This document shows positions 6,917-60,886 of a stretch of DNA of 64,000 nt, in pieces. The notes under the pieces are model-generated. The model worked only from the letters and a program-made list of their open reading frames with translations, ran no database searches and was not told the DNA's origin. Origin of the DNA: Phallus indusiatus (lineage: Eukaryota > Basidiomycota > Agaricomycetes > Phallales > Phallaceae); contig JAQFWX010000034.1 of NCBI GenBank assembly GCA_027605045.1, positions 62,001 through 126,000 of the forward strand. Direction: 5' to 3'. A program made the translations under genes and the position numbers. Position 1 is the stretch's first letter. Each line of letters opens with the position of its first letter.

Positions 6917-8088
6917 ATGACTTTCAATCCAATTTCTTCGTCAGCCGAAACTCCCTTGCAGTCAGAAGCGGTCTCGCCATCATTGCCAGACGGAGACTTC
7001 ATCCCGAAGAGTAACGAGGTAGCCGAATCGCTTGTAAATGACCTAAAGGAGGACGTTCAAAAAGACGAAATAATTAGTGCGGGGAAGAAGTAGAACAGGA
7101 GGAAACAGCAGTACGTACTTATTCGATGATTATTTCATTAGGCGACTGAATTTCCCTGATGCATATCACACTAGCTTACCATTTCGGCCGAAATCTCTTT
7201 AAACAAACCAAAGGAAAACATAGCCCTTACTGTCAATGAAGTTGAGGTAGAAACCTTTGAATCACCTTCAGAGATGATCATTCAAAGACAGGATGTTGAA
7301 GCGGATCCAACGCCGTCTTCCGGTGCTGATAATTTAGGCGACTCTGTGCGTAACATCGTGTGGTTTTCAATGGTAGCTCGCTGACTCATCATTAGACTAA
7401 GCTTCAGTCAACGGACTGCAACGTAGATGAAAGCAAGTCTGACACTTTGGATGATTGTGATGACAAGGATGCCTGGGGTGAATTTAGCTCCCCAGTGTCT
7501 ACCAATCGGGAATATGAATATGACGCTAGTACCGAGTGGAACGCGGAAACTATTGATTCAAAGTCAACAGTGCGTATTTTAGCTTAATTACAGACCCTTT
7601 GACTTACCGATACTGCTGTTATATAGACCATCGTGGTGAAGATGGCATCGGTACTTGGTGATTCTTCAGAGTCACCCACTGGCACCAGCGTGAATATCGA
7701 CTTGAGTGGGAGTGATTCTCATAATATCGTCGACATCGCTGTGCAATCGTCTGCTGAGACATCCCAGATTAACGTGTCTCTGACACCAGATTGCATAAAT
7801 ATAGCGGAGAATTCGAATCGCCCTCAAACTGCCGGTGCTACGCTAGTTCTTCAGCCCTTGTCTAACACACCAAAAAGGAAGTATCAAGAAGATGACATGG
7901 ACAAACAACCTCTGTCTCCAAAGCGTCAATGTCAATTTGAAAAGGATGAAAACTCAAGAGCACCTGGATTAAGATCGGCAATTGGTAGACATTTTTCTCG
8001 TGCAGCTAGGTCTGCTGGACCACGATCAGCGGTGGGCATCGCTATCAACGTTACCTCCCAGGTTATAAGAGGCAATCGATTACATTGA
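6917..8088 (+). CDS. unknown low-complexity, probably nuclear protein
   Basis: Open blocks separated by short introns: an acidic N-terminus from ATG 6917 (MTFNPISSSAETPLQSEAV...), a block beginning LTISAEISLNKPKENIAL near 7176, a block with DDCDDKDAWGEFSSP, and a last exon from about 7627 to the stop at 8088 containing KRKYQEDDMDKQPLSPKRQ. The lysine/arginine clusters fit a nuclear localisation signal and the bulk is Ser/Asp/Glu-rich and probably disordered. The first block meets an in-frame TAG at about 7091 before a usable donor, so the first junction is unsolved. No domain recognised. Confidence 0.4.
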
Positions 8089-49359: not shown

Positions 49360-49994
49360 TGTCAGGGTACGCTACCGCGTCCCCTCATTTTTCCTTATTA
49401 TTATCATCGGTATATATCTATTTCTATCTTATTTACATTTCCCGTGCATTACCTCTACTTTCCGTTTATTCTCTCCGTCCATATTTCACCTTCTCTACTC
49501 GCGCGCGTTGCGCGCTCGTACCTGGCGTGATGCCCATGACATCACGTCGCTTAGGCTCGGCTTGGGCGCCTAGCACTTAGCTGTGTCAGGGCCGCACGCT
49601 GTCAGGGTACGCTACCGCCGTCTCTCATTTTCTTATTTATTATCATCGGCATCGTTTCTTTTCTATTTTATTTATCCTTTCCATATTTTACTTTCACTCT
49701 CCGTTTCCTTGTTCTGTCTCTATTTCACTTTCTCTACTCGCGCGCGTCGCGCGCTCGTACCCGGCGTGATGTCTGTGACATCACGTCGCTTAGGTTTGGC
49801 TTGGGCGCCTGGCACTTAGTTGTGTCAGGGCCGCACGCCGCGTCGTCGTTTTATGTATATAGTAGCTGTACCTAGAGTGAGGGTCCCTAAGCTTGTTCTC
49901 TTAGGATCCCCTCCCTCTAGGTGAGTAGTATAGTTATCTTCCAATATATTGCTTAGGATCCCCTCCCTCTAGTGTGAGCTGAGTAGCCCTGACA
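49360..49994 (+). mobile_element. chimeric double LTR (partial plus full) of the gypsy1 family, TSD GATGT
   Basis: 49360-49599 is the first 240 bp of a gypsy1-type LTR (tgtcagggtacgctaccg...). At once a complete 395-bp LTR begins (49600-49994, ending gccctgaca). GATGT occurs on both outer sides (49355-49359 and 49995-49999), so the pair behaves as one insertion in the copia leader, just at the gag start codon. The two LTR parts differ clearly from each other, so they do not come from one element. Confidence 0.8.
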
Positions 49995-49995
49995 G

Positions 49996-51580
49996 ATGTC
50001 CGCTACTACTCCATCAGACTCTAACCCTAAGAAAGCAAAGCCGTACGAACCTCCAAAGTGGATCAACCAATACCAACCACATGAGCATCTGCAAGGAACT
50101 GAGAACTGGCTGACATGGAGCACAAACATGAAACGACTGCTGAAACAAGCAAATGTCTGGGAAGTTGTCACTGGAGAAAAACCACCTGCGAGCTCGCCCG
50201 AGTATGCGGATTGGTGCCTCAAAGATGGATTCGCACAAGTGGCAATCACACACAATGTAGTATCCAAGCACACCCTACCACTCGAAGACAAATCATCCAG
50301 CGAGATGTGGTATTTCCTCCAAGACCAATTCCAGCAAGTCGGACATGGATTGATCACCTTACTATTCAAGAAGCTCCTTCGCATAGTTACCAAGACGTCC
50401 GAGATGGAAACCCATGTCACCGACTTTCAAGCAACACTTCGGCATCTCGTGGACGCTGGAGTAAGGTTCTCCGAATATGTTCAATCGGCCATCCTCCTGG
50501 CTACTCTTCCGGACAGCAGTGCAGGTCCTGATTCCTGGATGGGATTCATATCGAGTACTCGGGTCAGCAGGGACACGAAGCTATCTGCGGTAGTGGCCAC
50601 AATCCTCGAAGAAGCCCGAATCCGATTGGCTAAGAACCCCACCGAAACGGACGATAATGCTCAGGCACTAGCTGCACGAGAATGTCAGGCCAAAAGCAAT
50701 GGCAAGAGATTCTGCTGAACTTGCGACAGAGAAGGCCATGACACGGCAAATTGCTGGGCTAAGGGTGGAGCAAAAGAGGGACAAGGTCCCAAGCGGAAGC
50801 GCACCAAGAAGAAGGAGAAGAAGGAGAAGGCGAAGGCGGCAAAGGAGTCGGATAGTGACAGTGACGAAGAAACAAACATGATCAATGAGTCCTGTTTTGT
50901 GTGTACACCATCCTCCGACAACCTCCCTACCAGCAATCTGCCCTCTGAACCATCCGCAAAACCCTGCGAGCAAGTGTTACATTCCCTTCAAAGTCGAATT
51001 ATCATCGATTCTGGTGCAACCACTCACATCGACATCGACCGTCGCAACTTCGACAAAGTCTCACCCTCCTCTAACCACCTAAATGGCATTGGAAGCAATA
51101 AAGTCCCAATTGTGGGACGAGGCAAGTCCAGTCGACGAATCAAATTGCCAAATGGCAAACCCGCGAAGCTCAAACTGAAAGATACCTGCTATGTCCCTAG
51201 CATGTCAATGGGATTAATATCTGTATCGCGAATGGACGAGGCCGGCTGCTATACCTTATTTGGGCAAGACAAGGCCATGTCATTCAAAGCGAATGATGGC
51301 GGGAAGCTCATGCGGGAGATCCTGAAGAAGGAAGACATTCAGTTCACTGCGAGCAAACGATCTGACAGACTGTATCACCTTGACGACACTGAAGACTCCG
51401 AAATTGCAAATGTTGCCGAAGTATCTGAACTTGAGCAACTGCATAGGAGACTCGGTCATCTCAACTATCACCACATTAAGAAGATAGTCAAGAAAGATAT
51501 GCTTACTGGAATCAAGCTCAGCGAGAATGATTTAGCGAGCGAGCCACCACTGTGTCCATGTTGTGCGGTCGGTAAGATAA
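49996..51580 (+). pseudogene. copia gag-protease-(pre-integrase) frame with one TGA
   Basis: Gag begins MSATTPSDSNPKKAKPYEPP with the copia UBN2-like pattern (NWLTWSTNMKRLL, FLQDQFQQVGHGLI). An in-frame TGA at 50716-50718 sits where the zinc knuckle should read C-W-T-C; the rest, TCDREGHDTANC, follows in the same frame. The protease has IIIDSGATTHI (Asp-Ser-Gly). A GAG-pre-integrase segment LEQLHRRLGHLNYHHIKKIV and the first Cys pair of the integrase zinc finger (LCPCC) end at the gypsy2 insertion. Integrase core, reverse transcriptase and RNase H are absent. Confidence 0.85.
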
Positions 51581-52258
51581 TGTAACGTTTCGTTACTTTT
51601 TATAGTGTACCGCTTGCGGTACACAGTTTATATCACGCTGTAGTTTCACGCCACAAGTAACAGACCAAATGTCACGGTACGCTAGCGCCTTTTCCGATTA
51701 TTCGATTTCTTCGATTTCTTTCGGTTTCATTTCGTGTTACGATTTCCTCCATTTCCCGTACTTTGCCGTTTCCATTAGTTCCATCGTTTTCTCGATTTTT
51801 CGATCTCTTCGATTTTCCTCGATTTCTGTCTATATCTCCTCGGATCCCATGGGGATCAGTTGAGCGCTTCGTATCCTGTACTTATATGCGTTTTCCCTAG
51901 AGGGGGATACCTAAGCTTGTTCTCTTAGGTTTTCCCTCCTCTAGGTGAGTAGTTAGTCGCTGCCCCTCAATAGATCTTAGGTTTTCCCTCCTCTAGGTGT
52001 GTGCCCTGAGTCGCCCTAACACCAAAGTGCTGTATTTTCTTTGTGGAGTAAAACAAGTTGCGCGTGCTGAATCAGCACGCGCGTAGCTACTACTAATGTA
52101 TAGTTATTACATAATGGCTCGCCGCGCCGCGGCGAGCCAGAGGCGTTAAGCGCCTCTGTTATTAGAGTAAGTAATAGTAACTACTGCAGAGGGCGAAGCC
52201 CTCTGCATATGCCTAAGTGGCATATACTCAATCCACCGCATGCGGTGGATCCGTTACA
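51581..52258 (-). repeat. gypsy2 3' LTR (about 321 bp without the inserted solo LTR)
   Basis: Ends are TGTAACG at 51581 and CGTTACA at 52258, a 7-bp perfect terminal inverted repeat of TG...CA type, next to a polypurine tract. Holds the strongest palindromes of the region: 51605-51624, 52060-52082, 52116-52138, 52138-52158, 52185-52207 and the perfect 20-mer at 52231-52250. Confidence 0.75.
51670..52021 (+). mobile_element. solo LTR, 352 bp, TSD CCAAA
   Basis: Begins TGTCACGGTACGC and ends CGCCCTAACA, with CCAAA on both sides (51665-51669 and 52022-52026). The ends and the internal cctaagcttgttctcttagg match the gypsy1 LTR, so it belongs to a related family in opposite orientation to gypsy2. 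It sits inside the gypsy2 LTR and is free of the dense palindromes around it. Confidence 0.9.
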
Positions 52259-52268
52259 TCCTCCCCTT
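52259..52268 (-). other. gypsy2 polypurine tract
   Basis: Minus strand aaggggagga lies directly before the 3' LTR (TGTAACGG), the position required for plus-strand DNA priming. Confidence 0.7.
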
Positions 52269-52320
52269 GTGACTTGGACTCCAAGTCATAGGATCGCGAA
52301 GAGGAAGCATCTGACTGTAA

Positions 52321-54140
52321 TCAGTCAGAGGGATTGCTGTAGTCAATCTCCATGCTCTCCGAGGCACTCGGATGCGGTGCGTCAAGGTCCTCAGGGGGCC
52401 TCAACAATTCCTCGTCCGTCATCTGAATTGGGACGGACGGGGAGTAAACCTTATTAGGCGGGCCTGCCACAATACTGGCAGGTGATGCCGACGCATGGAC
52501 GGCGGGGACGGCCGACTGAGTCGTACGCGCCTTTTTTGTTGGACGATCCAGTCCACGGCGCACGCGATAGTCATGCGCGATGCGATTAACATCTTCTCCA
52601 TTGGCGTAACGTTGGAGAAGGGGCGCGATCACCTCAGTGACGCGTCTTGTCGTCGCTCCATTGGCGTGCATGGAGCGAATCACCTCCTCTATGGTAATGG
52701 AGGAGGGGGATTTGCACTCGAAGGAACGAGTGTAGCCTTCCATGAGCGTGGAAGGCAGGTGGGTGGAGGAATTACCCCTACCACCGAGAACTTCTTCCCA
52801 CACAGTAAGTGCGGGGTCGAGGAGGCACTCAGCCGCCTTCTCGAGGAACTTGGCACGCACTTCACGAGTACGTGTGACTCGTTTGAGCCATGCGAACACC
52901 TCAACATCTTGAGGGTTTAATGATCCATCCGACATTAGTCGGATGTAGGGAGGGACCTGGTTAGGGTCCGCATTCCAAGTATTGATTAAATACTTGATCT
53001 CGGGGTGGATTAACTCTCCCGAGATAAACACCACCGATGGACGGTTGGCGGCAGCCTCCATAGCTTCAAGCTTGGCTGTTTTCCTCGCCAGGCGGCGCTC
53101 CTTCATGGATCTGCGCCAACGAGTCCATGCGTATGAAATACGCATGTGAACCCCTCTGTCATCGGGGTACGTGAACACCGGGGGGTCGGTCCAAACCCGG
53201 GTTCCAATCTCGACGAACAATGGTTCGTCGAGGCTGCAGGTGTTATACCATGCAGTAGGATTGGGGGTGCCAGGCACCAGAGAATGATCCCCACTAACAG
53301 TGGGGTCGAAACCCTTGACGAAGAAGGGCCATGGGTCCCTATTGGAGTCCCATCCTGGCTTGGTCCGTGGATACGGACCAGAGGGTTTCCTTGGAGAAAC
53401 CGGGGCAGCATCGCGAGAGCCCGATGCCTTGGTTGCATCAGCGTAGGTACGCTGAGGCTTGTGTTTGGTGGACGACGCGATGGAGGCGTCGTCATCATAG
53501 TCATTATCATCGACTATGTCTTCCATGTCGTCGTCAGACGACATGTCGTTGAAGATATCAGGCAAAGGGGCTGCCTGGGATGGTTCAGGCGCTTTATCGG
53601 CCTGGTCTCTCGACCGCTTTTTGGAGGTCGATGGGGTAGTCGACGGGCCTGCCGTCGACGCTGAACGTTCAAGTTCAGCAATGCGAGCTTTCAGCTCGCA
53701 GATATGACGATTCGCATCGTCGAGGTGGTCTGTCAAGGACTTGACGTCCTTTTCAGCTTCTTCTAGACGTTCGTCTAGATGATAGTACTCCTCTTTATGA
53801 AGGGAAAGGCCTTGTAGACGGCCTGCTTGACCATATCATGGTCAAGGATGATTGCCCCGCTGCCAGCGGGGCCTGCCAGGTGACTGGCAAAGTCGTTGCA
53901 CGCAGTGCAACTATCATTGTTATGATAGACGGATATGCATCCGTCCATCGCGTCTAAGGTCCATTCGGACCTTTGCAGGGCCAGTTGAGCCTCTGCTTTT
54001 TTGAACCTACTAACAGGTTGCGGCGTAGGCGACCGCAAGCGTGATCGTTCGCGTTGTTTTCCCTTGCTGTCAGGCATGGGGGGTGTGAGGGAGAAAAGAC
54101 CGTGAACGGACTTTTGGGTTATATACTTGGGCGGCCTCAT
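52321..54140 (-). pseudogene. gypsy2 extra ORF downstream of pol, one frameshift
   Basis: Two frames join into one protein of about 600 residues if one base is lost or gained near 53790. The first (54140-53775) starts MRPPKYITQKSVHGLFSLTP and includes a Cys pair (CTACNDF). The second has a coiled coil (YYHLDERLEEAEKDVKSLTD, ICELKARIAELERS), a Lys/Arg patch, an acidic run (DDDMEDIVDDNDYDDDAS) and a conserved-looking core (WPFFVKGFDPTVSGDHSLVP, AWYNTCSLDEPLFVEIGTRV, FTYPDDRGVHMRISYAWTRW), ending NPSD at 52321. It occupies the env position but has no signal peptide or membrane helix. Family not recognised; a structural or gag-like role is possible. Confidence 0.6.
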
Positions 54141-54210
54141 GGAGCGCCCAAGTGAAAATTACCTCACCGCGTAGCAGTGAAGTGCCAGTGGATCCCTGTG
54201 GGTGGGATCT

Positions 54211-54667
54211 TCAAGCAGATCCCCGAGTGGGATCTGGGCGCTTGTTGTTGGTCCGCGACTCTCCGTGATTGGATAGTCGTGGCAGCTGCCGAGGCTCGTT
54301 TACGCCTCGTAATTGCAAGTACTCGTCTAGAGCTTGCAAGTCCTTACAGTTACTGTAAGGTTCCCAAGTGGTATCCCCAAGGGTCCACTGGACTAGGAAC
54401 TCGAGATCTTTCTCGCGAGTTCCACTCCAGCGATGAGCTAGGAGTTCCTCGACGTGCCATTCAGCATCGTCTGGCTGTCCAAAGTCATACGCCGTGAGTG
54501 TATCGCGGCGTGGAAATCTCTCATCGTCGTTGGCGATGTGAGGTTTAATCAAATCCACGTGAAATACGGGATTTATGCGACGTTGCTTGAGCTCTTCAGA
54601 GAGCTCAAGTTTTACTGTGATATTGTCTTTAACGGACAATATTTTGTATGGTCCCACATAACGCGGG
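54211..54667 (-). pseudogene. gypsy2 pol 3' end: integrase tail and chromodomain
   Basis: Reads YVGPYKILSVKDNITVKLEL (GPY/F-like module), RINPVFHVDLIKPHI, then a chromodomain WHVEELLAHRWSGTREKDLE and FLVQWTLGDTTWEPYSN, ending at 54211. Everything upstream of GPY is missing because gypsy1 begins at 54668. Chromodomains direct integration to marked heterochromatin in such elements. Confidence 0.85.
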
Positions 54668-55063
54668 TGTTAGGGCTACTCAGCTCACACTAGAGGGAGG
54701 GGATCCTAAGATAATATATTGGAAGGGAAACTAACTACTCACCTAGAGGGAGGGGATCCTAAGAGAACAAGCTTAGGGACCCTCACTCTAGGTACAGCTA
54801 CTATATACATAAAACGACGACGCGGCGTGCGGCCCTGACACAGCTAAGTGCCAGGCGCCCAAACCGAACCTAAGCGACGTGATGTCACGGGCATCACGCC
54901 GGGTACGAGCGCGCAACGCGCGCGAGTAGAGAAGGTGAAATAGAGACAGAACAAGGAAACGGAGAGTGAAAGTAAAATATGGAAATGATAAATAAAATAG
55001 AAAGGAAGTGATGCCGATGATAATAAATAAGAAAATGAGAGACGGCGGTAGCGTACCCTGACA
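54668..55063 (-). repeat. gypsy1 3' LTR
   Basis: 396 bp. On the plus strand it runs tgttagggctactcagctca ... gtaccctgaca. It differs from the 5' LTR by G/A in gagaaggtgaaat and by a/g in ataataaataag. Confidence 0.95.
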
Positions 55064-55076
55064 CCATCCCCCCTTC
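55064..55076 (-). other. gypsy1 polypurine tract
   Basis: Minus strand gaagggggga tgg immediately before the 3' LTR and overlapping the end of the pol frame. Confidence 0.75.
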
Positions 55077-58000
55077 AACGAGGCGGCGTCCCGACGCCTG
55101 TAGCTTCGACTAATGACGCCTGTAACTTTGAGAAGTCGAACCGAGGGCGACGATGGAAAAGAAGACCATTTATCGAGCGTGGCGCACTCGGATGTTCGCG
55201 GTGGAATTCCTTAATGAGATCCGGGGCTGCAATATTTGACTCGGGTTCCCACTGATCGTGCTCGGGGCCATAGCCTTCCCAACGCACCTTATACTCGAGT
55301 CGTCTCCGGAAGACACGACTGTCCAAGATCCGTTCCACGACATAGTGTTCACCATCGTCTCTGACCTCAGGAGGGGGGGGGGCCCTGACGCGACGACCCG
55401 GGATTGTATCTTCAACCTTTGGACGCAACTTCCCGACGTGGAACACTGGATGAAGCCTTGACATCGACAGTGGTAAACGCAGCTTATATGCGTGCGATCC
55501 GACCTTGCTGACTATCGGGAAAGGCCCCAGGTACCAATGCGATAACTTGGCGGAGGGCCTGGTGGTACGGATGTCGCTCGAATCGAGGTATACCTTGTCG
55601 CCAACCTTGTATTCAGGTGCCGGGATGTGTTTCCGATCGTAGTACTTGGCCATCTCATCCTTCGACTTGGCTATAGCGGCCTTGGCTTCCTCTATCGTCG
55701 ACTCCATACGCGTCTTGAACTCGTTGACAGATTCGATCTTGGAGTCGGCAACCAGCGGTTCGAATCCCATACGAGGATGTCGTCCAGTGTCGAGCTCAAA
55801 CGGTGTCGCGCGCGTAGCTGAGTGCACGTGGTTGTTATATGCGAACTCAGCCAAGGGCAGTATCTGGTCCCAGTCGTCCTGTCGCTCAGAGGTGAAAAGT
55901 CGAAGGTACTGTTCGACTTCTGCATTGACACGTTCCGTCTGACCATCGGTTTGAGGATGATATGCCGTGGAGGGTGCAAGCCGTATGCCAAGGAGTCTAG
56001 AAAGCTCCTGCGTGAAGCGGGACGCGAACTGGGGGCCCCTGTCAGAGATCACCTTCATGGGGAGACCATGGAGCTTCCAGACGTGTTGAAGGTACAGACG
56101 GGCTAGACCCGTCGCGTCAAGTGTCGTAAATGTCGGCACGAAATGAACCCGTTTGGTGAGAGAGTCGACGACAGAGAGGATCGCGTCGAAACCGTTAGAT
56201 TCTGGCAGCTCCACGATGAAGTCGACTGAGATGTGTTCCCAGGGTCGACTTGGCACTTCTGTGGGTCGGAGAAGGCCATAGGGAGCATGACGAGACGGTT
56301 TCGTACGTAGACACATGTCGCAGGCCTCTACATAGCGTTGGACATACCTAGAGACACCTGGCCACCAGAAGGTGCGCGAAACGAGCTCGAGAGTCTTGAA
56401 ACGACCCGGGTGACCACCGAGTTTGGTGTCGTGGTGTCTGGAAAGGATTTTCCGACGCAACTCGTCCACATTTGGCACGTAAACCTTGCCGCGATAGTAG
56501 AGGAGGTCCTGGTCTTCAAACCATTCCGACGAGTGAGCTGAACGACCACCCAGTGCACGAAGTGTTGCAACGGCTTTAGACACACTATCCTCGACCTTGC
56601 CTTCCCGATTGGCCTTGCGAATCTGGCGTAAAAGGTCCTCCTCCTCCCCCTTAAGACGGAATGTTTGCAGAGCATTGATTGCAAACATTTCGGGTCGGAT
56701 TAGAGTGACGCCACGATTGTCGTCTTTTCCCGAGCCATGATCTGGGCGACGGGACAAGCCATCAGGTTTCCCCATCGACTTACCCGGTATATGCTGCAGA
56801 GTAAAGTCGAATCGTGAGAGATATACTGACCATCTAGCTTGACGACAATTTAGGTTACGCGCGGACATGAAATATTCAAGATTCTTGTGATCAGTCCGTA
56901 TGTCGATAGGGTGGGATGCGCCTTCGAGAAAGTGTCGCCATTCCTCTAAGGACCGTATGATAGCCAGCATCTCCTTGTCGTGAATCTCGTAGTTGCGTTC
57001 AACGGGACTGAGGGCCTTCGAGAAGAACGCAACAGGATGCCATTTGCCGTCCTCGTTCGACAACTGTGAAAGAACCGCGCCTGTTGCAAAGTCGGAGCTG
57101 TCTGCTTCAACCCGGTAAGGATTAGTGGGGTTGGGAATGAGAAGAATGGGAGCAGAGGTAATTGACGACTTCAGAGTATCGAAAGCATGCTGACAAGTGT
57201 CGGACCAGACGAAGGGTGTATCCTTCTTGGTTAACCCGAACATGGGATTGGCAATATGCGCGAAATCCTTGATAAACCGACGGTAGAAGTTGGCGAAGCC
57301 CAGGAAGGACTGGACCTCAGTGACGTTCTTCGGGATGGGCCAGTCTCTGACACCCGAGACTTTCGCGGGATCCATCTCGACCGTGTTCTCGGAAATGACA
57401 ACACCCAAGTACTCGATCTTAGTCCGGCAGAACTCGCACTTCTCTGCCTTGAGATACAGCTTGTGCTCGCGGAGACGTTCGAGAACGCGTCGTGTTACCT
57501 GGTTGTGCTGTTCCCGATCCTGAGTGTAGATGAGAATGTCGTCGATATAGACGGCAACGACACCTTCCGAGATCATGTCCTCGAAGATCTCGTTCATCAT
57601 TGTCTGGAAGGTCGCAGGGCTATTTGTGAGACCAAAGAACATTACCAGAGGTTCGAAAAGGCCGCGGTTGGTGCGGAAAGCAGCCTTCCACTCGTCTCCT
57701 TCCTTTATCCGCACATTGTTGTAACCCCAGCGCACGTCCAGCTTGGTAAAGTACCGGGCACCTTGCAATTTGTTGATGAGCTCTGAGATCAGGGGCAGCG
57801 GGTAACGGTTCTTAATCGTCATAGCATTCAATGCCCGATAGTCCTGGATGAGACGAAGAGAGCCATCTTTCTTCTTAATGAAGAATACCGGGGACGCCAT
57901 GGGCGACTTGGAGGGTCGGATTCGTCCAGATGCAAGGTTTTCTTCTAGAAACGCGTCTAACTCGGCCTGCTCGTTGGGCGACAACGGGTAGATCTTGCAC

Positions 58001-58134
58001 GACTTGGGCTCAGAACCTGGCACAAGCTCTATCGGGTGATCCCACTTCTTCGATTGCGGCAACGAGTCGAACGACTCCTTCGAGAAAATGTCGGCAAAGT
58101 TGTGGAACATCTCTGGCACGATATCCCGAAACCC
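55075..58134 (-). CDS. gypsy1 pol: reverse transcriptase, RNase H, integrase, chromodomain
   Basis: About 1015 residues. RT: FFIKKKDGSLRLIQDYRALN, FTKLDVRWGYNNVRIKEGDE, FGLTNSPATFQ and the catalytic VAVYIDDILIY. RNase H: HPVAFFSKALSPVERNYEIH, DKEMLAIIRSL, DIRTDHKNLEY. Integrase: an HHCC finger (HHDTKLGGHPG, ACDMCLRTK), then the DDE core with SVDFIVELPES, VISDRGPQFASRF and STAYHPQTDGQTERVNAEVE. A GPF/Y module (WYLGPFPIVSKVGSHAYKLR) and RLHPVFHVGKLRP follow, then a chromodomain (YVVERILDSRVFRRRLEYKV). No stop inside. The frame is -1 relative to the protease and starts at the GGGTTTC heptamer at 58128-58134, so it is likely read by frameshifting or was split by a one-base change. Confidence 0.93.
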   Translation of the reverse strand, partial: GFRDIVPEMFHNFADIFSKESFDSLPQSKKWDHPIELVPGSEPKSCKIYPLSPNEQAELDAFLEENLASGRIRPSKSPMASPVFFIKKKDGSLRLIQDYRALNAMTIKNRYPLPLISELINKLQGARYFTKLDVRWGYNNVRIKEGDEWKAAFRTNRGLFEPLVMFFGLTNSPATFQTMMNEIFEDMISEGVVAVYIDDILIYTQDREQHNQVTRRVLERLREHKLYLKAEKCEFCRTKIEYLGVVISENTVEMDPAKVSGVRDWPIPKNVTEVQSFLGFANFYRRFIKDFAHIANPMFGLTKKDTPFVWSDTCQHAFDTLKSSITSAPILLIPNPTNPYRVEADSSDFATGAVLSQLSNEDGKWHPVAFFSKALSPVERNYEIHDKEMLAIIRSLEEWRHFLEGASHPIDIRTDHKNLEYFMSARNLNCRQARWSVYLSRFDFTLQHIPGKSMGKPDGLSRRPDHGSGKDDNRGVTLIRPEMFAINALQTFRLKGEEEDLLRQIRKANREGKVEDSVSKAVATLRALGGRSAHSSEWFEDQDLLYYRGKVYVPNVDELRRKILSRHHDTKLGGHPGRFKTLELVSRTFWWPGVSRYVQRYVEACDMCLRTKPSRHAPYGLLRPTEVPSRPWEHISVDFIVELPESNGFDAILSVVDSLTKRVHFVPTFTTLDATGLARLYLQHVWKLHGLPMKVISDRGPQFASRFTQELSRLLGIRLAPSTAYHPQTDGQTERVNAEVEQYLRLFTSERQDDWDQILPLAEFAYNNHVHSATRATPFELDTGRHPRMGFEPLVADSKIESVNEFKTRMESTIEEAKAAIAKSKDEMAKYYDRKHIPAPEYKVGDKVYLDSSDIRTTRPSAKLSHWYLGPFPIVSKVGSHAYKLRLPLSMSRLHPVFHVGKLRPKVEDTIPGRRVRAPPPPEVRDDGEHYVVERILDSRVFRRRLEYKVRWEGYGPEHDQWEPESNIAAPDLIKEFHREHPSAPRSINGLLFHRRPRFDFSKLQASLVEATGVGTPPR

Positions 58135-59192
58135 TTGGGAGCTGGTGCGTCTGCGTTGTTGGCGTGGGCCTGAGCTAGTCGCTGGGAGATGGTCTCGGTG
58201 GCATATATGCGGTGAGTGTCGGGCTCGTCGGGTAGCATTGATATCGCGAACAGTCGATCACCCTCTTCAATCCCAGACTCGACGTCGACCAGGTCTGGTA
58301 TGTCAGGATCATCGGCCTCAGTGTCGTCGAGCTCTGGCAGAGGTGCGCGTCGGATCTGTTGGAACGCGCGCTTAGAGAGCTTACCCACTGGCCAGCGTGG
58401 GGCACAAGACCGACAACTGGGGCTGCAGCGCATGAACTCTACTTGACCAGTTGTGTAGTCTATGACAGGATTGTGAGCCTTGAACCACGGCAGCCCGAAC
58501 AAGACGGGATACTTGAGTGAGGTAACGGCGAACAAGGTGCGTTCAGAGTGATCCCGAAAGCGAACAACGAGGTCGACAACGTGGGTGATAGAGCCAGCGT
58601 GGTTGGGCGTACCGTCGACGTTAAACACGGGAATGGGTTTAGCAAGGCGTACGGAGGGAAGTCGATGTTTCTCGACAAAGTCACGATCGAGGAACATACC
58701 GCTAGCCCCGGTGTCCAGCATGGCCTTGCTGTGCAGCAGGGCTCCGGTGTCAACACTCTGTAGCTCTACTGGAATCTCTAGCTTCTGCGTGCCTGCGGTA
58801 GCTGCGAGTCGGTATTCCTTTGGCAATGCACGACGTTGAGAAGGCGACAGCATACATGGGGTAGAAACAGAACGTGTGGCAGGTGGAGGCGATTCTTTGG
58901 GTTTGTCAGGGGATGCAGCAGGGGTAGTTAGATTCGAATCAGAAATGTCATTTTGTTCGCGATCTATGTACAAAATGTCGAATCTATTAGATGTCGGCAA
59001 CGAGGGTGCACCTATCACTCGTCGCCGTTTTGAAAATCCTCTACCTCTGTTGCAGCTACAGTCTCGCCTTGGGTCAGAGCAGAGTCGCCACGTGCCTGGG
59101 CTTCCAACGCGTCTTTCTGGGCCAACAAATGTGCGATATTGTCGTCCAATTCGTCGGGCTGAAGATACCGAATGTCGTACGCGCGAGGGCAT
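58128..59192 (-). CDS. gypsy1 aspartic protease frame
   Basis: Contains KAMLDTGASGMFLDRDFVEK with the DTG active-site motif, then VRFRDHSERTLFAV and YPVLFGLPWFKAHNPVIDYT, the second half of the retropepsin-like fold. It ends with APAPKGF at the slippery heptamer. Open from 59192 but overlaps gag in another frame; the true protein probably begins near 59080. Relative to gag the frame is also -1, with no canonical heptamer seen in that overlap. Confidence 0.8.
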
Positions 59193-60325
59193 TCACGAGC
59201 CCAATGGCCTGTTGCTCCACAGCGATGACATCTGGTCGATTCTGGGCCTACGCGTCGACGAGCAGCGTCAACGTCCATCGGGTCATGTCTAACCTGGGAT
59301 GTAGGAGCAGAAGCCGCAGGTCTAGGAGGCAACGCGGGCGCGAGTTGAGGTGCTGGCCTGGGAGGTGGGTAAGAAGGAGCTTGATAGGAAGGGGCAGGGG
59401 GCCTCCTCTGGATCTGGAGGGTCTGATACGACGGAAAGGGGTTGGGACGGGGTCAATTAATGGGGACGATCGCGGGATTCGTCTGAACCGTTCCAGAGCC
59501 TACGAGTCGGCGACGAGCAGCAGTGAAAGCCTCGTTGGCACGCCTGTCCATGTCAAACATGCGTGCTTGCCTGATCCAGCCCTCGTAGTCGTGAAGTGCG
59601 GGTCGGTCCTTCATCGTCGCTACTAGAGATGCAATTGTCGGATCCAAACCGTTACGAAAGTACGTGTTAATGGCGAGTCCTTCCGTAAAGCCAGCGTGCT
59701 CAATGAGCACGCGGAAGGCGTCCACATACTCTTCCACAGTCCTGTTGCCTTGGACATAGCGGTTGGAATAGAGGGTGTTGATGGCATCTTCTTGCTCGGA
59801 TTGTGGAAAGAAATCAGCCTTGAATCGTTCCCGAAAGGCATTCCAGTCCGCGAAGGGCTTCTCTCCTCTTTGATACTTTTTCAGCATAGATTCGCTGAAG
59901 GTAAGGGCGCGGCCTTCATTCATGTACGACATTGCCCAGCCGATCTTGAGTTCATCAGTCTCGAAATCGCGACTGCATATACTCATGTAAAACTCGACGG
60001 TGTTCCAGAAGGCACGACCTTTGGAGCGATCTCCGTCGAACGAAGGAGGTACAGCAGGTCGGGTGTTTCGGGAAGAGCGTGAACTGGCTTGATGCTCAGG
60101 AGCCGGTGGTTGTCCAGGTGAGGACGCGTCGTCAACAGGGGTGTTTTGGGTAGGAGCAGCTCTAGCCGCGTCTCGGATGCTCCGTAGGACCTCAATCATT
60201 TGTGAGGCCTGGGATTCCTGTCTTGCCATGCGGGCATCCATTTCCGCGAACTGCCGCATGATAATAGTCGCCACATCTTCGAGGGTGACGATTTGGGGTG
60301 CAGAGGGTGGGGGTGAAGAATCCAT
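59015..60325 (-). pseudogene. gypsy1 gag with an internal TGA before the zinc knuckle
   Basis: Starts MDSSPPPSAPQIVTLEDVAT; the capsid part has FDGDRSKGRAFWNTVEFYMS, FADWNAFRERFKADFFPQSE and YVDAFRVLIEHAGF, typical of the retrotrans-gag domain. A TGA at 59453-59455 ends this part. The same frame continues with a proline-rich linker and the zinc knuckle CHRCGATGHWAREC, and stops at 59015. Given the near-identical LTRs this is either a recent nonsense mutation or a codon that is read through. Confidence 0.85.
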
Positions 60326-60477
60326 GAGAGAGAGAGAAAGGAAAAAGGGGTTTTAGGACGAAACAGAGGGGTCAATTATAGACGGGACTCGAGGGGAAAA
60401 TACGACACTGCGATAGTCGGTGTCGAGCGCGATTTTTCAGTAACGAGTGTCGATAGAAACGACCAGTCTGCGAGTAG

Positions 60478-60488
60478 AAGCTTGTTCT
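60478..60488 (-). other. gypsy1 predicted self-primer binding site
   Basis: Two nt inside the 5' LTR the minus strand reads agaacaagctt. It is exactly complementary (11 of 11) to aagcttgttct inside the LTR at 60597-60587, which lies 33 nt after a TATA box and is thus near the predicted RNA 5' end. This is the arrangement of Tf1-type self-primed elements. No match to a tRNA 3' end was recognised. Confidence 0.6.
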
Positions 60489-60490
60489 AC

Positions 60491-60886
60491 TGTTAGGGCT
60501 ACTCAGCTCACACTAGAGGGAGGGGATCCTAAGATAATATATTGGAAGGGAAACTAACTACTCACCTAGAGGGAGGGGATCCTAAGAGAACAAGCTTAGG
60601 GACCCTCACTCTAGGTACAGCTACTATATACATAAAACGACGACGCGGCGTGCGGCCCTGACACAGCTAAGTGCCAGGCGCCCAAACCGAACCTAAGCGA
60701 CGTGATGTCACGGGCATCACGCCGGGTACGAGCGCGCAACGCGCGCGAGTAGAGAAAGTGAAATAGAGACAGAACAAGGAAACGGAGAGTGAAAGTAAAA
60801 TATGGAAATGATAAATAAAATAGAAAGGAAGTGATGCCGATGATAATAAGTAAGAAAATGAGAGACGGCGGTAGCGTACCCTGACA
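60491..60886 (-). repeat. gypsy1 5' LTR
   Basis: 396 bp, TG...CA type (minus strand TGTCAGGG...CCCTAACA). Contains the TATA box at 60624-60630 and an inverted pair cctaag/cttagg around the predicted primer sequence. Confidence 0.95.
60624..60630 (-). promoter_or_regulatory. gypsy1 LTR TATA box
   Basis: Minus strand tatatag, with the predicted transcript start about 33 nt downstream at aagcttgttct (60597). The same pair is present in the 3' LTR. Confidence 0.55.

Follow-up and report, generated by a model that had tools for sequence, protein, structure and literature searches.

A hairpin-paved family of Ty3/gypsy chromodomain retrotransposons in the genome of Phallus indusiatus

Work on genome-wide RNA structure has treated it as a property of RNA viruses, and there is continuing debate about what it is for. 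In PMC7642675, genome-scale ordered RNA structure (GORS) appears as a folding excess over coding and non-coding sequence alike, with stem positions poorly conserved between relatives, and the minimum folding energy difference (MFED) is given as 15% for SARS-CoV-2, 7-9% for hepatitis C virus and at most 23.4% among vertebrate RNA viruses. Here we analyze such a trait in a retroelement that must pass through DNA: family A, a long terminal repeat (LTR) retrotransposon of the fungus Phallus indusiatus, the 3' third of which lies at positions 51581-54667 of a 64,000-nucleotide stretch of contig JAQFWX010000034.1 (hereafter the window). Like GORS genomes, family A shows an order-dependent folding excess across most of its length, coding sequence included, and structure is retained, at a lower level, in a related family B in which the stems differ. 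Unlike them, it is a DNA-integrated fungal element with nearly pure Watson-Crick pairing and an MFED of 42% in 350-nt fragments, a value obtained with dinucleotide shuffles that may differ from the method of PMC7642675. We tentatively propose, stopping short of calling it probable, that family A has been selected over its whole length for short Watson-Crick hairpins and that the likeliest reason is a shield against host silencing.

Other described systems share part of this pattern. The RNA phages MS2 and Qbeta are likewise predicted to fold strongly and locally on both strands; family A replicates through DNA, is far denser in perfect stems of at least 8 bp (8.2 per kb, against 0.8 in MS2 and 1.4 in Qbeta) and shows the stronger folding by the same measure. 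Yeast Ty3 genomic RNA also contains stable folded parts, with a well-folded core of almost 20% by SHAPE-MaP probing according to PMC11381356, against 95% of 150-nt windows with z below -2 by prediction in family A. The closest relatives in kind are the Ty3/gypsy chromodomain retrotransposons of mushroom-type fungi, which family A resembles in its domains, LTRs and 5-bp target duplications and from which it differs in its paving and in an orphan open reading frame (ORF2) of 599 codons after the chromodomain. No hairpin-paved retrotransposon was recognized in searches of open-access literature by title and abstract opening, in agreement with an earlier sequence-only reading of the window, which knew of no described element of this kind.

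Hairpin density and predicted folding

The sequence-only reading had counted about 40 stems of at least 7 bp in this stretch, against a rough chance expectation of 2-3. The paving was confirmed and turned out to be understated: with loops of 0-15 nt there are 45 perfect stems of at least 7 bp, 32 of at least 8 bp, 15 of at least 9 bp and 6 of at least 10 bp, compared with 1.8, 0.8, 0.1 and 0.03, respectively, in 60 dinucleotide shuffles per threshold, the first of which is close to the rough expectation. All 24 stems that had been listed are present, 23 in the computed list and a 7-bp stem (53660-53679) by eye, and two are 1 bp longer than reported (52115-52139, 12 bp; 53854-53872, 9 bp). Elsewhere in the window, each 1-kb bin holds 0-2 stems of at least 8 bp. 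As the same reading had held, the solo LTR inserted in the element and the neighboring retrotransposon gypsy1 are unpaved, with no stem of at least 8 bp in the former and 4 in 6.2 kb, against 0.9 expected, in the latter.

The paving belongs to the element, as had been supposed. The genome searched (67.2 Mb, 206 contigs) provided a sample of 18 family A copies at 9.9 kb and 12 upstream stretches, among which nine copies are complete with both LTRs; all nine lie elsewhere in the genome and are paved from LTR to LTR with 65-75 perfect stems of at least 8 bp each, compared with 1.3 in shuffles of one of them, L027. Codon shuffles that keep the protein and the codon usage also failed to reproduce the stem number, giving 1.7 for the 33 stems of ORF1 and 0.9 for the 17 stems of ORF2 in copy L023. 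Because the excess survives both kinds of shuffle, composition and codon usage were rejected as main causes. Nothing was found in favor of chance, of base composition or codon usage, or of a short repeated unit as the origin, and these readings have next to no probability, given these controls, the differences in sequence among the stems of 51581-54667 and the mean folding z of 0.12 in the remainder of the window.

Folding predictions agreed with the stem counts. RNAfold z in 150-nt windows averaged -4.78 inside the element (17 windows, 88% below -2) and +0.12 in the 409 windows outside it. Both strands are predicted to fold, with a mean z in L027 of -4.60 for the sense and -4.11 for the antisense strand (95% and 92% of 121 windows below -2). 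Against the codon-shuffle control, ORF1 and ORF2 each had a sense z of -3.8. In 350-nt fragments, MFED reached 42.0% in L027 and 39.7% in the window copy, against 29.8% in Qbeta, 27.9% in MS2, 20.6% in family B, 2.7% in a third family, C (one 3.8-kb stretch was examined for each of B and C), and 1.2% in gypsy1; the folding excess of E. coli ribosomal RNA (rRNA) was 5-6% in 150-nt windows. G-U pairs make up 4.6% of the sense fold of family A, half the shuffled level of 10.2%. Pairing this close to purely Watson-Crick would leave the sense strand and its complement alike folded in advance, as in Qbeta RNA.

In family A the excess of stems over chance holds steady as far as 8 bp, where it is 5.3 per kb, and falls to 1.6 per kb at 9, and 13 of the 20 stems of at least 7 bp with a 4-nt loop are exactly 8 bp long. 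There was no clear trade-off between stem length and GC content (GC 0.55-0.56 at 6-8 bp). Loops of 3-6 nt are commonest; they are poor in G, and unpaired G+C is lower than in one shuffle on each strand. Dispersed short stem-loops have been proposed as packaging contacts in RNA phages, and selection to package or compact the plus-strand genomic RNA, with stem-loops as Gag contacts, could accommodate these loop sizes, a folding level above that of the phages and a paving that runs over the whole length, LTRs included. However, no common motif was seen by eye among the 3-nt and 4-nt loops, sense G-U pairs are not favored, and family C and gypsy1 manage without paving, so that we consider such a role quite unlikely.

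Coding constraint and maintenance among copies

In the part encoding reverse transcriptase (RT) to integrase, hairpins are present irrespective of how conserved the protein is, with an arm density of 0.55 nt per codon at invariant columns and 0.63 at the most variable. Compared with 20 relatives, arm codons depart from the conserved residue in 16 of 114 cases at columns 70% conserved, no more often than other codons (91 of 446, p=0.14). The codons of two motifs, YIDD of RT and HPQTDG of integrase, each lie inside a perfect hairpin of 8 bp. Stems that set one third codon position opposite another, the register with least flexibility, are the rarest (23 of 90) although they form the most frequent class in codon shuffles (232 of 560), a pattern to be expected of stems made through synonymous choice.

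Stems that are perfect in one of eight other copies and not in L027 were one base apart in 90 of 100 cases, counts that are non-independent across copies. Together with the neutrality toward coding, these one-base differences point to point substitution under selection, within the freedom of the code, rather than to copied tracts. The sequence-only reading had offered two interpretations, serial quasi-palindrome repair through template switching by the reverse transcriptase, which would perfect imperfect stems, and selection for a structured RNA genome. The first is consistent with arms that are perfectly Watson-Crick, with a paving confined, among the sequences examined, to the A/B lineage, and with the other ten copy-specific stems, which are not single-base steps and five of which had two or more mismatches made good. 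It nevertheless appears improbable, as conserved amino acids are not replaced by arms, stem density is independent of protein conservation, most copy-specific stems differ by one base and the stem excess drops sharply past 8 bp. The pattern is not one of multi-base, coding-blind tracts copied from the opposite arm, and template switching was rejected as the main source.

The second interpretation fared better. The proposed check that arms should change together was borne out: where both sides of a paired position had changed among family A copies, Watson-Crick pairing was restored in 8 of 8 cases, compared with 4 of 35 when partners were slid by 1-4 bases (Fisher 3e-6). Relative to singletons, variants shared between copies were rarer in arms (58 to 130) than outside them (317 to 399, p=9e-4), and the difference persisted in non-coding sequence with near-duplicates removed (p=0.011). 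In non-coding arms, lineage-shared variants (24/449) were rarer than in loops (27/165, p=4e-5) and than outside (141/1400, shared against invariant p=0.0017). Within family A, stems are mostly kept between copies. In six copies that differ from the reference by 2-7%, their own stems number 63-75 each after scaling to full length, where random drift of 4% would leave about 44 stems of at least 8 bp and drift of 6% about 35; part of each difference lies on the reference's branch, making the contrast smaller than it appears with its sign unchanged. Selection for a folded genome is thus supported by the codon shuffles, the compensatory changes and the scarcity of lineage-shared variants in non-coding arms. 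It also follows that strong selection can act on the synonymous sites of a transposon, with consequences for the dating and codon analysis of such elements. Variant counts were made without L029 and L024 (a near-duplicate of L025), the compensatory and site-class analyses also without L020 and L028 (near-identical to L027), and columns with fewer than eight copies were excluded.

Related families, the folded strand and a possible shield

The RT protein, compared with the genome with 116 of 489 candidates scored, matched at least 118 places, a split copy counting more than once: 62 at 92-100% identity (family A), 52 at 75-83% (family B) and 4 at 41-42% (family C). Family B has 47 stems of at least 6 bp, against 9.8 expected, and 20 of at least 7 bp, against 2.7, but only 3 of at least 8 bp, its excess holding to 7 bp (4.0 per kb) and falling to 0.65 at 8. 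Family C is near chance, with 12 stems of at least 6 bp against 11.0 and 6 of at least 7 bp against 2.9. The trait is therefore graded, being absent in C, partial in B and saturated in A. A comparison of A with B over 1,143 codons shows 75% identity in amino acids and 70% in bases; amino acid identity is 0.81 in arm codons, 0.74 outside and 0.68 in loops. Of 331 stem pairs of A, 180 are still paired in B, compared with 74-94 when slid; where both sides of a B stem pair had changed, 16 of 30 were restored in A, above the slid control of 4-9 of 20-24. Both families are thus structured, more weakly in B, with stems mostly at different places.

Mismatches inside stems provide a hint about which strand folds. 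Among single internal mismatches in family A there were 20 A-C (0.9 expected), 3 G-U (0.5) and 19 others (2.8); scaled to the other classes, A-C was in excess (20 against 6.1, p=7e-6) and G-U was not (3 against 3.4). Selection on the sense RNA alone would tolerate G-U and not A-C, the reverse of what is seen, hinting that the complementary strand must fold. Preference for G-U over A-C, as in rRNA (3 G-U and no A-C at total 7, 3 and 2 at total 6, with A-C absent at totals 7 and 8 and 2 against 1.5 expected at total 6; small numbers), was not found in family A stems.

One explanation for this bias is that selection acts on the minus strand, with hairpins serving in first-strand cDNA within the particle, through compaction, protection of single-stranded DNA or control of plus-strand synthesis, or in full-length antisense RNA. 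An A-C mismatch reads as G-U or G-T on that strand, the codon-shuffle control keeps the A-C lead over G-U (15.8-fold and 6.1-fold, respectively), family B leans the same way (A-C to G-U 5 to 0 at total 7 and 8 to 3 at total 6), and the small-number calibration, in which MS2 and Qbeta together enrich both classes and rRNA has little A-C, is in keeping. However, the counts are small, A-A is equally high in the codon control (16.2-fold), and 18 of 26 A-C or G-U mismatches in coding stems lie beyond synonymous repair by our tally, so that base use at fixed positions may contribute. Moreover, A-C and G-U variants in arms are alike among copies (p=0.31), the A-C:G-U ratio in stems kept between A and B, with two mismatches allowed, is mixed (7:3 one way, 6:7 the other), and the predicted folding excess is no larger on the minus strand than on the sense strand. 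We regard minus-strand selection as unlikely.

Our tentative preference is selection for a folded genome that shields against host silencing. Computation shows the presence and density of the hairpins, their neutrality toward coding, their covariation within the family and their different placement in family B. In this proposal the hairpins arise mostly through point changes that are synonymous or non-coding and are maintained by compensatory ones, and between families it is their overall density that matters rather than any single one. A strand pre-folded into hairpins of about 8 bp would anneal poorly to antisense RNA, to small RNA and to its own complement, and would then be a poor substrate for silencing by the host RNA-dependent RNA polymerase (RdRP), Dicer and Argonaute; stems rarely exceeding 10 bp may also be too short for dicing. 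Argonaute (Piwi), RdRP and RNase III domains all have matches in the host genome. Strong local folding of Qbeta-replicated RNAs has been linked to the avoidance of double-stranded RNA (PMC6913131), and structured viral RNA escapes RIG-I and PKR sensing in fibroblasts (PMC3950689). On these grounds we favor a shield that hinders the element's RNA from forming duplexes with antisense or small RNA. A stronger version, which we hold to be rather unlikely, is that the lineage has been recoded in steps, down to its catalytic motifs, so as to lock the complementary strand, as antisense RNA or single-stranded cDNA, in hairpins of about 8 bp. Along the whole sequence, such hairpins would passively guard against the strand becoming double-stranded or against attack on single-stranded intermediates, and to our knowledge this complementary-strand shield would be the first in a DNA-integrated element.

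Several results weigh against this proposal of selection and shielding. The ratio of shared to singleton variants does not differ between arms and outside at third codon positions (p=1.0) or at first and second positions (p=0.20). Pairs of A kept in B barely exceed the roughly 48% that divergence alone would leave, and where both sides of an A pair had changed, 14 of 37 were restored in B, no better than the slid controls (3 of 42 to 16 of 45). Families B and C enter the comparison through a single stretch apiece, gypsy1 is unpaved in the same host, which indicates that the pressure is not general, and the lead of A-C over G-U suggests the minus strand rather than both strands equally. The benefit to the element is inferred, the link to silencing being drawn by analogy. 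The unpaved relative and the unpaved neighbor in the same genome are natural controls that make the shielding idea directly testable.

Copies, coding content and surroundings

Apart from its paving, family A is an ordinary Ty3/gypsy chromodomain LTR retrotransposon. The nine complete copies are about 9.2 kb long (about 9.19 kb without insertions), with LTRs of about 320 bp that start with TG, end with CA and are 93-100% identical within a copy. Six of the nine have 5-bp target duplications by eye; with the ends used, none was seen in L015, L023 and L026. L024 and L025 are not counted as complete because the repeat pair there is the LTR of another element, and the upstream stretch of L013 could not be linked to it. 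ORF1, of up to 2,020 codons, encodes in order gag, a zinc knuckle, protease, RT, RNase H, integrase and a chromodomain, and there are copies with both frames open. In L023 the Pfam domains Chromo (21.7 bits, cut-off 25.1) and rve (26.9, cut-off 32.6) fall under their cut-offs; in the window copy Chromo is above it (27.4 bits).

ORF2, 599 codons in intact copies, matched no Pfam family, and in a search of 5.8 billion proteins in which 7,996 candidates were scored it had no homologue at E <= 0.001. An AlphaFold model from three near-identical sequences predicts a long helix at low confidence (mean predicted local distance difference test score 36). Contig C140, with seven B-class matches, had no ORF2 match among the matches listed (73 of 255 candidates scored), suggesting that ORF2 may be family A's own. 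Named RT relatives of family A, among the best 120 of 380, come from Trametes, Phanerochaete, Phlebia, Mycena and Lyophyllum, genera of the Agaricomycetes. Scans of IMG/VR for relatives with DNA elsewhere found none. A plasmid search found one record, 5.3 kb long and filed as a Wolbachia plasmid, that encodes at NZ_CP087956.1:1638-2562 a Ty3-like RT of 31.5% identity, possibly an insect retroelement in the assembly. Singleton variants of family A are mostly C>T and G>A, 265 of them at CpG sites, as in methylation-driven decay, and per base T>C occurs about 2.5 times as often as A>G.

Features of the window copy and its neighbor are collected below. The ORF1 end retained there comprises the SH3-like domain of integrase and the chromodomain and is cut at 54668 by gypsy1. 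Because gypsy1 is flanked by GCGGG and GCAGC (by eye), which do not match as target duplications would, and no further family A sequence was seen on its far side, the window copy is probably truncated rather than simply split.

Table 1. Features of the family A copy in the window and of the adjoining element
Feature	Position	Strand	Remarks
Hairpin-paved stretch	51581..54667	-	45 stems of at least 7 bp, 32 of at least 8 bp; shuffled 1.8 and 0.8
3' LTR of family A, outer part	51581..51669	-	Starts TGTAACGTTTCG on the + strand; ends from complete copies; stem 51605-51624 (9 bp)
Solo LTR of another element, within the 3' LTR	51670..52021		Bounds of the sequence-only reading; no stem of at least 8 bp
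3' LTR, inner part, paved	52022..52258	-	Stems 52060-52082, 52115-52139, 52138-52158, 52185-52207, 52231-52250
Candidate polypurine tract	52259..52268	-	Purine-rich, adjoins the 3' LTR; by eye, from position only
ORF2, orphan, paved	52321..54158	-	Here two reading frames, 52321-53835 and 53775-54158
ORF1 (gag-pol), C-terminal end, paved	54211..54667	-	Pfam SH3_Tf2-1 and Chromo above cut-off
gypsy1, a different chromodomain LTR retrotransposon	54668..60886	-	Both LTRs; unpaved control; ends by eye

On its other side, the family A LTR is adjoined by a Ty1/copia-type gag-pol fragment at 49993-51585, with Pol_BBD and gag_pre-integrs in 50719-51585. Away from the element, isolated 150-nt windows with a folding z below -3 occur at 7651 and 49801.

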